From positions 1 through 64,000 of the forward strand of contig JAFYYR010000016.1 of assembly GCA_017557435.1 (NCBI GenBank): a DNA stretch of 64,000 bases, read 5' to 3'. This DNA comes from Pseudobutyrivibrio sp. (GTDB lineage Bacteria > Bacillota > Clostridia > Lachnospirales > Lachnospiraceae). Both the position numbers and the translations under genes were made by a program. The notes under the pieces are model-generated. The model had not been told where the DNA came from. It ran no database searches and worked only from the letters and a program-made list of their open reading frames with translations. Of this stretch, positions 10,999 to 22,834 are shown piece after piece. The stretch's first letter is position 1. Each line of letters begins with the position of its first letter.

Positions 10999-11048
10999 AA
11001 ACCCTACGTGTAAAGATAAGAAAAATTACTTATTTACACGTAGGGTTT
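10999..11048. repeat. Sixth copy of the 38-bp inverted repeat, acting as a bidirectional hairpin
   Basis: The core 11005-11042 is TACGTGTAAA, 18 nt, TTTACACGTA, the same size as the five units at 21984-22299. Here the stem extends to 16 bp (AAACCCTACGTGTAAA and its complement), bordered by A and T runs. An inner TAAG/CTTA pairing can extend it further. Between the convergent ClC and leuC-like genes it would make a good two-way terminator. Confidence 0.8.
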
Positions 11049-21052: not shown

Positions 21053-21841
21053 TTACTGCAATCCGTCAATCTCAGTTGTAATCTCGTCTTTTGATACATA
21101 TTTATCCACTGACTTTGCCACATCTGCAGAATAATACAGCTCTAACACAGAATTATAGTCAGCATCATTTTTAAGATAGTCGTCATCCCATGTCCAGGTA
21201 TCTACAATAGGCTCACCATTTTCATCAAAGCTATCCTCTGCCCATGGATCAGAAGTTCCCTTCTCTCCGTATCCAAGAAGTACCCACTGCCCATCTCTTA
21301 TAGCAAGAAGATTATCGTAATATGCTCCAAGTACTACGCCTGTATTGTCCACAATATTCTGCTTCTCAATATAGGTAAACTCTGTTCCGCTAGTAAGTGC
21401 ATAGTTAAGGCTTCCCTCATGATAAGAAATCAAATAGACGCCAAATGTCTCATCATTAGAGTTACAAACTAGTTCTGGAATATCGTCTTCGTTAACAAAG
21501 ATAAGTGAATATGTGAAACTATACTGAGGAGAATTAGCCTCCACATCTGCTATAGCTGCAGTATAAGCACTCTTTACATCATCATAGGTCTTACCATCTG
21601 TTCCGCCGTAAACATCTGCATTTGAAAGGGCCTCATCGTACTCTGGTGTATGACTATATCCCTCAATTACTTCTACAACAGCATCTGCTTCCTCTTCCAC
21701 CTCTTCTTCCTTAGCCTGGCTAGAAGTCTCTATAGATGCATCTGATGATTCCTGCTCTGTCTTCTTGCCCTTCTCACCGCAAGCAGCAAATGATAAGCAA
21801 ATAGTTCCTACTAATATAATTGATAATAATTTCTTCTTCAT
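21053..21841 (-). CDS. Secreted lipoprotein of unknown function
   Basis: About 262 residues from the ATG at 21841, chosen because GGAG lies 8 nt upstream and MKKKLLSIILVG starts a clean signal peptide; an ATG 45 nt further out lacks this. The lipobox LSFAAC marks the mature end. A low-complexity acidic linker (rich in E, S, A, to about residue 60) precedes a globular domain rich in D, Y and W. No recognised domain. Probably anchored on the outer face of the membrane. Confidence 0.75.
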   Translation of the reverse strand: MKKKLLSIILVGTICLSFAACGEKGKKTEQESSDASIETSSQAKEEEVEEEADAVVEVIEGYSHTPEYDEALSNADVYGGTDGKTYDDVKSAYTAAIADVEANSPQYSFTYSLIFVNEDDIPELVCNSNDETFGVYLISYHEGSLNYALTSGTEFTYIEKQNIVDNTGVVLGAYYDNLLAIRDGQWVLLGYGEKGTSDPWAEDSFDENGEPIVDTWTWDDDYLKNDADYNSVLELYYSADVAKSVDKYVSKDEITTEIDGLQ

Positions 21842-21983
21842 AATAAATCTCCAATCCCCTTTATATACCTGTATAGTATACCTCATTCCGTAAGATTGGG
21901 AAAGATATTGAAGAATTATATATATCCTGCAGATACTATTTAAATACCCAATAAATAGGTATTCTGGAGATTCTTTTGGGATT

Positions 21984-22299
21984 TACGTGTAATTAGCTAA
22001 TAAATCTGAATATCTCACGTAATTCCAATGAAGGGATTAGCTCGTTATACGTGTAAATTAGATAAAAATCTACATTTTACACGTAGGTTTTCACTAGTAA
22101 AATAATTACTTCTACGTGAAAATTTAATTAAAATCTATCATATACACGTAATTTTAGCGTCCTAAACTATATAAATCGATTGTTTATCCATTATTTCTAC
22201 GTGTAAATAAGGTATTATTACGAATATTACACGTAACTAACCGAAAAAGCACTCTAATTCCTACGTGTAAAATGATTAAAAAACGACTTAATTCACGTA
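21984..22299. repeat. Array of five 38-bp inverted-repeat units in helical phase
   Basis: Units lie at 21984-22021, 22048-22085, 22113-22150, 22198-22235 and 22262-22299. Each is 38 bp: an arm close to TACGTGTAAA, an 18-nt variable AT-rich centre (often with AAAAATC), and an arm close to TTTACACGTA. The invariant core is ACGTG...CACGT. Starts are 64, 65, 85 and 64 bp apart, near 6, 6, 8 and 6 helical turns. There is no ORF. A sixth unit is at 11005-11042. It lies downstream of the tRNA cluster and upstream of the lipoprotein gene. The stretch 22300-22446 shows nothing I recognise. Confidence 0.85.
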
Positions 22300-22446
22300 A
22301 ACTAACCTGATTTAAAGTGATATCACCAAAATAGATACCATCTACTCTTAGGTTATCTCTTCAAATCAACTGAAAACCATTTAATATCTAAATAAAATTG
22401 AAGATAATCGGAAAATGATTCGAATTATTCGCTTCGCTCTGACCGG

Positions 22447-22560
22447 CTAAACGGGGGGATTCGAATTCTCACCTGCCGGCTCGGTCGGCTCGCAACCATG
22501 TGGTCCACTGGACCACGCTCGCCCCTCGACATCACGGGAAACCCATGGTTTGATTAAGTA
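22447..22560 (-). other. Rearranged tRNA-derived remnant
   Basis: Two fragments match tRNA-Met in the same orientation: GGGGGATTCGAA (near 22455-22466) and CCCTCGACATCACGGG (near 22523-22539, one mismatch). They are separated by about 57 unrelated GC-rich bases containing the palindrome TGGTCCA-G-TGGACCA. I could not fold the segment into a cloverleaf: the T-stem beside TTCGAAT does not pair. It is therefore not called a functional tRNA. Confidence 0.4.
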
Positions 22561-22562
22561 TA

Positions 22563-22638
22563 GAATCCCCCTCGCTACGCAACAAAAAAAGGAATCCTTT
22601 TGGATTCCTTTTTTTGTTGCGTAGCGAGAGGGGGATTC
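22563..22638 (-). repeat. Long inverted repeat containing the tRNA operon terminator
   Basis: Arms of 35 and 37 nt, identical except for a 2-nt indel, meet at a TTTT tetraloop (22598-22601). The inner part, GGAATCC/GGATTCC followed by seven T on the minus strand, is a normal terminator after tRNA-Met. The outer part is an inverted copy of the tRNA-Met 3' end (T-arm edge and acceptor strand), so the gene's own tail is mirrored. Confidence 0.8.
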
Positions 22639-22695
22639 GAACCCTCGACACCACGGGTATGAACCGTGTGCTCTAGCCAACTGAGCTATCTCGCC
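22622..22695 (-). tRNA. tRNA-Met (CAT anticodon)
   Basis: A 74-nt cloverleaf: acceptor GGCGAGA/TCTCGCT, D-arm with AGCTCAGTTGG, anticodon loop TTCATAC giving CAT, and T-arm GAGGG-TTCGAAT-CCCCC type. The first pair is G-U, and CCA is not encoded. The A-box and T-loop fit elongator rather than initiator tRNA-Met. It is transcribed after tRNA-Val. Confidence 0.93.
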
Positions 22696-22721
22696 TCAAT
22701 AACTAAATATTTGATTTTGAA

Positions 22722-22794
22722 TGGGACCTACAGGGCTCGAACCTGTGACCCTCTGCTTGTAAGGCAGATGCTCTCCCAGCTGAGCTAAGATCCC
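22722..22794 (-). tRNA. tRNA-Val (TAC anticodon)
   Basis: A 73-nt cloverleaf: acceptor GGGATCT/AGGTCCC, D-arm TAGCTCAGCTGGGAGAGC, anticodon stem-loop CTGCC-TTACAAG-CAG with TAC, T-arm CACAGG-TTCGAGC-CCTGT. It is the first gene after a strong promoter, with tRNA-Met following 26 nt later. Confidence 0.95.
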
Positions 22795-22834
22795 AGAGCT
22801 TTTCGCGATTGTTACCGCTTCAAGCGACTAGATA

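Follow-up and report, generated by a model that had tools for sequence, protein, structure and literature searches.

What would read five evenly spaced inverted repeats in a gene-free stretch of a bacterial genome, and to what end? The question arises in the window analysed here, the first 64,000 nucleotides of contig JAFYYR010000016.1 of Pseudobutyrivibrio sp. (GenBank assembly GCA_017557435.1), where an array of 38-bp units, each opening with TACGTG and closing with CACGTA, occupies positions 21984-22299. Our sequence comparisons identify this array as an orphan of a nuclease system. Elsewhere in the same genome, at C24, a solitary predicted nuclease gene carries an array of the same class in its own leader. 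We consider it probable that the window array is the orphan cognate site of this nuclease, whose N-terminal arm would read TACGTG, and that it acts as a landing site.

Half-sites and helical phasing of the array

The five 38-bp units proposed by the sequence-only reading are present where it placed them (Table 1), with unit starts 64, 65, 85 and 64 bp apart and exact hexamer ends in all five. The full 10+10 arms, with up to three mismatches, match five places in the window (four array units and the lone unit at 11005-11042) and none in 100 shuffles, which is beyond chance expectation. Across the whole genome, the exact hexamer pattern occurs 15 times versus once for the reversed control, and 17 times versus 4 when one mismatch is allowed. 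The arms had been described as constrained and the centre as free. The first part stands for the hexamer TACGTG/CACGTA and falls for the next four bases, which differ independently between the left and right arms; this independent variation favours protein half-sites and disfavours RNA pairing. The second part must be given up, as unit positions 16-21 are A or T in 92 of 96 letters (16 units from this genome) versus 135 of 192 at the neighbouring inner positions. With only the hexamer half-sites constant and the centres variable, the array lacks the constant direct repeat of a CRISPR, in agreement with the earlier judgement; cas genes were not searched for. Rfam returned two tRNAs over the window and no match at the array. 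The three inverted pairs detected in 21400-22800 include none that flanks the array as the terminal inverted repeats of a miniature inverted-repeat transposable element (MITE) would.

The helical phasing claimed for the window extends well beyond it. Across 51 nuclease-upstream arrays (clear calls only, 47 with a score of at least 3 and four with 2.5, orthologs included), the best free spacing period is 10.45 bp (R 0.89, n=109 distinct locus-spacings), and R is 0.866 for spacings of at least 68 bp (n=29). The TACGTG loci alone give a best free period of 11.75 bp (R 0.932, with 0.928 at 10.5 bp) and leave the period unfixed because almost every spacing among them falls within 62-65 bp.

Further arrays lie in the same genome: four units at C24 (spacings 65, 86 and 65, with one mismatch in the final unit), four at C25 (one of 37 bp, spacings 65, 85 and 64), two units 158 bp apart at C29, and a single unit at C23. 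The C11, C24 and C25 arrays have a common geometry and no clear similarity beyond the half-sites. A two-unit pattern recurs in 51 stretches of the genome collection (Butyrivibrio, Pseudobutyrivibrio, other Lachnospiraceae and Treponema), from the ruminant gut where record titles state a source, and nowhere in the viral collection. Arrays elsewhere mostly have 2-7 units, with one run of 11 (one mismatch allowed), at spacings mostly of 63-65 bp and sometimes 74-75 or 85. Exact units number 3 to 51 per genome in 13 array-bearing genomes, with one control match in total. Together with the 10.45-bp period, the arrays of this genome and the 51 stretches support the earlier suggestion of a dispersed, phased protein-site array that is also present in relatives. 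Of 29 genomes of the genus, 3 contain exact units. Two of these, with 15 and 5 units, are the genomes whose examined nuclease copies include one of the TACGTG class (38 bp); the third has a single unit, inside a mobile element. De novo detection also placed arrays built on different half-sites, GCACCG and TTACCA, upstream of other open reading frames (ORFs) at L031 and L037.

A predicted nuclease family paired with leader arrays

The C24 gene (C24:27522-28313) encodes a protein of about 265 amino acids, and its array lies in the leader, in the order promoter, array, ribosome site, ATG. The protein has no Pfam match above cut-off. It is predicted to hold a nuclease domain resembling I-Bth0305I, TnsA and Vsr, of PD-(D/E)XK / EDxHD-type fold, and its N-terminal arm is predicted to form a helical hairpin with a beta-hairpin tip. 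Four residues of putative active-site type (E, D, E and H) are kept in 79 of 79 family members, and the C-terminal domain matches the end of PDC-S68 in 12 of 12 members (best 4.5e-28). Searches of NCBIfam and PHROGs gave nothing convincing for the family, a sequence search of the PDB gave two matches only (E 0.42 and 1.3), and the Pfam results of five members scanned contain no Y1 match indicative of an HUH/Y1 transposase partner. The family is multi-copy and patchy, found in 28 of 29 genus genomes searched and in Treponema. Relatives of the C-terminal half occur at seven loci of the viral collection, and matches to the C-terminal part only in five plasmid records; of two phage records, one, an unannotated faecal contig of 4.2 kb, has a match spanning 83% of the query.

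De novo arrays scoring at least 3 lie upstream of 59 of 82 nuclease genes, downstream of 3, and in none of 82 shuffles. Once 12 array-chosen loci and two duplicates are dropped, 68 protein-found copies remain, mostly the higher-scoring of 176 matches; 46 of them have an upstream array and one has a downstream array. Genomes picked for TACGTG arrays have an upstream array at 20 of 29 nucleases (11 of 19 once ten genes already counted are removed). Among other genes, taken as a control, the figure is 1 of 89, the one being the window array, and ORF clustering found no gene family except the nuclease that recurs directly beside arrays. Promoter-like sites precede 37 of 76 nucleases, compared with 1 of 74 on the downstream side and 1 of 100 other genes. 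Half-sites vary between nuclease lineages and mostly track the protein tree, and on these sequence comparisons the pairing of array class with protein lineage is well supported. One nuclease copy of a second family (L296) has ten TGGAGC units downstream, not upstream.

In eight leaders of the ATGCATCC class (proteins 70-83% identical), half-site identity is 0.896, a value inflated because units were located by their half-sites, compared with 0.543 in the centre, 0.441 in the inner arms, 0.458 in the outside flanks and 0.274 at random. An orphan element of about 400-440 bp, present at unrelated places in five genomes, has half-sites 0.922 identical among four copies versus 0.780 at other positions.

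Twice, between close relatives, the promoter, array and N-terminal arm have also been replaced together. At the guaA locus (the gene was recognised by eye), the DNA of G019 (ATGCATCC) and G012 (TACAGT) is 93% identical until guaA is about to end, and 91% identical again beyond a point within the nuclease gene; between these blocks the promoter, array and N-terminal codons give no match. The same segment is replaced at the same kind of place between G018 and G025. In the two replaced pairs, identity remains below 0.7 over about 120 and 135 codons and is then at least 0.9 in all but one block. Across 173 pairs with C-terminal identity of at least 0.65, N-terminal identity separates the half-site classes with an area under the curve of 0.999, and C-terminal identity with 0.817. 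At L304 a possible hairpin (AAGTGATATAGATTTATCACT, seen by eye) lies between promoter and array and may add regulation.

Orphan arrays resemble the nuclease array of their own genome. In nine genomes, 28 of 30 orphans are closer to it than to the mean of the others, and for 20 of 30 it is the best match (chance 1 in 9), a result equalled by 3 of 5000 label permutations. Some observations weigh against the proposed pairing and its extension to orphans. In a wider sample only 3 of 15 readable nuclease loci have an upstream array; linkage may account for part of the separation of half-site classes by N-terminal identity; and the likeness of orphans could partly reflect copying from the nuclease array. 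G072 is an exception, as is SIG341, where 3 of 6 nuclease copies examined include none of the TACGTG class.

Mobility and surroundings of the window array

Some arrays appear to have moved. In SIG341, an array-bearing element of 275-277 bp occupies three loci with unrelated flanks. In YAB3001, a 307-bp MITE with 17-bp inverted ends occurs at two loci; its ends are also found in L064, and G003 holds a copy of 94% identity. Over about 190 bp, the array of this MITE has 75-83% identity with leader arrays of Butyrivibrio nucleases. G003 has three more sites that match the left end of the MITE (89% over about 33 bp), and the one of these that was checked adjoins a PF01609 transposase ORF. At the site where the window's genome has its own module, G013 lacks 2.25 kb holding the array, the nuclease and a 249-amino-acid ORF; the extra ORF blurs the ends of what might be an empty allele like that of a homing endonuclease gene. 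Of 11 enlarged loci, 9 have the nuclease after guaA (in one case separated from it by a single ORF), and those that reach far enough show variable genes beyond the nuclease. A passage in PMC5704250 gives the 3' end of guaA as a known integration site. At loci L299-L309, the guaA-proximal region has a gene set that differs between species and opens with the nuclease or has it close to the beginning. Separately, a 58-nt stretch, 98% identical, is shared by L032 (5965-6022) and L062 (5681-5738), each near an array, in genomes with different record names.

Table 1. Array units and flanking features of the window
Feature	Position	Strand	Remarks
Array unit 1	21984..22021	n/a	TACGTG-N26-CACGTA, 38 bp
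Array unit 2	22048..22085	n/a	38 bp, exact 10+10 arms
Array unit 3	22113..22150	n/a	38 bp
Array unit 4	22198..22235	n/a	38 bp, starts 85 bp (about 8 turns) after the start of unit 3
Array unit 5	22262..22299	n/a	38 bp
Lone unit, TACGTG class	11005..11042	n/a	exact 10+10 arms, between two convergent ORFs
ORF, 277 amino acids	21053..21886	-	lipoprotein-like signal by eye; upstream side faces the array
tRNA-Met	22621..22695	-	other flank of the array

The gene-free stretch around the array is real, at about 730 bp and not the 780 bp first given, measured from the ORF start at 21886 to the tRNA-Met at 22621 and disregarding a 77-amino-acid ORF that overlaps the tRNA. The lipoprotein-like ORF has an 84% identical counterpart in G013, there without an array, and no evidence tying it to the nuclease-array system was found. 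DNA of G013 is 82% identical to the window up to about position 21904; beyond this point there is no array and synteny is broken, so G013 is not a clean empty site. Absence from a close relative, which the sequence-only reading had counted as evidence against itself, is thus seen in part. On these comparisons, the TACGTG arrays are lineage-specific and some of them are mobile. A general association with tRNAs was rejected: of the 54 array loci scanned in addition to the window, only 3 have tRNAs. Near the window's tRNA-Met, two short stretches at 22447-22540 repeat parts of it without a tRNA call, possibly a tRNA remnant, and a 31-nt inverted repeat (22567-22632, 97% complementary, 4-nt loop) overlaps its 3' end.

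Mechanism, alternatives and known systems

We propose that two TACGTG half-sites 32 bp apart (three turns), with an A/T centre between them, are read by the N-terminal arms of a protein dimer, which would probably bend the DNA. Several dimers on one DNA face could then assemble into one complex. The order of promoter, array and start codon suggests that the leader array is an autorepression or roadblock operator on the nuclease's own gene, and autoregulation by the nuclease is likely. Orphan arrays, that of the window included, would recruit the C24 protein in trans, where its conserved nuclease domain could nick or cleave DNA close by, or tether sites to one another. Nuclease and arrays may be partners in the manner of REPIN/RAYT or of homing, with DNA-reading modules that can be exchanged, possibly to selfish benefit.

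Other explanations account for parts of this evidence. If the nuclease-fold protein were mainly a regulator, orphan arrays such as the window's would be operators of other genes. The leader position with promoter-like sites fits such a regulon, as do the window array's place upstream of the lipoprotein-like ORF and the orientation of the ORFs flanking 35 orphans (tandem at 24, divergent at 7). The remaining 4 lie between convergent ORFs, however, and at TACGTG loci a promoter-like site occurs within 250 bp of only 2 of the 35 orphans (and of 3 of 13 nuclease arrays). Given also that the nuclease alone recurs beside arrays, with its four active-site-type residues invariant, we find a regulon doubtful. 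It is unlikely, too, that the nuclease is an antiphage effector restrained on its own leader array, with orphans as decoys or captured copies. Its multi-copy, patchy distribution and the PDC-S68 match would suit defence, but the match is limited to the C-terminal domain, the neighbours of the C24 gene look housekeeping-like by eye, and orphan arrays would have no obvious role.

That the arrays are passive repeats spread by ordinary transposases gains plausibility from the YAB3001 MITE, its scattered ends and the transposase ORF beside one of them. Half-sites nonetheless outconserve their surroundings in nuclease leaders and in the orphan element, and no inverted repeat flanks the window array, so we judge passive spread quite improbable. 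An RNA-level element (guide array, riboregulator or terminator) is very improbable: leader arrays downstream of promoter-like sites are probably transcribed, and the window array is predicted to fold better than 100 shuffles (z -4.4), but in that fold just 2 of 5 units form their own hairpin, the spacing period is that of B-DNA, the half-sites vary independently and Rfam finds nothing there. Phased palindrome arrays are partition-site-like in general form, and a centromere-like, nucleoid or replication site had been suggested for this locus. We give that suggestion almost no weight. The arrays are class-specific and tied to nuclease paralogs, other paralogs having other half-sites, and exact units are absent from 26 of 29 genus genomes, so they are not kept regardless of nuclease class.

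The literature searches made here listed no published account of the nuclease-array system that we favour as the explanation of the window array. No known kind that we can name joins a solitary nuclease, a phased leader array, exchangeable arms and dispersed cognate arrays. We are evenly divided on a fuller description for rumen Lachnospiraceae and Treponema, in which reading arm and phased leader array are inherited and swapped together as a single module, each genome has several specificities, cognate orphan arrays are maintained in trans, and the whole works as a selfish or domesticated nuclease-array drive. Nature would here supply a repertoire of swappable DNA-reading modules, each a protein arm with its DNA half-site, and two module replacements that arose naturally; a recognition code might be worked out from them. 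Dispersed chromosomal arrays are seen to obey a strong helical-phasing rule, unexplained intergenic repeats of common rumen bacteria gain a testable protein partner, and the system offers a direct case for how a solitary nuclease persists in genomes.

Among known systems, the Tn7 protein TnsA shares the predicted fold, and Tn7-type transposon ends carry multiple protein sites; at the nuclease gene, by contrast, neither a partner transposase nor defined ends were noticed. PDC-S68, a PADLOC candidate defence protein, shares the C-terminal nuclease domain, but its model is about 1200 amino acids long, compared with about 265 here, arm domain included. The EDxHD homing endonuclease I-Bth0305I and Vsr are likewise akin in predicted catalytic fold, and a passage in PMC3943268 says that I-Bth0305I dimerizes on a target of nearly 60 bp. 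In our case, unlike theirs, there is no sign of an intron host, the array of sites sits in the leader of the nuclease gene itself, and cleavage is putative. REPIN/REP sequences with their RAYT (TnpA-REP) similarly pair a single chromosomal enzyme gene with palindromic repeats of its own and with scattered copies that may be non-autonomous, and PMC8266576 states that enzyme and repeat have co-evolved. That partnership uses an HUH-family enzyme and single-stranded hairpins, whereas the one described here would join a predicted PD-(D/E)XK-type nuclease to double-stranded, phased, multi-unit arrays, with several specificities in one genome.
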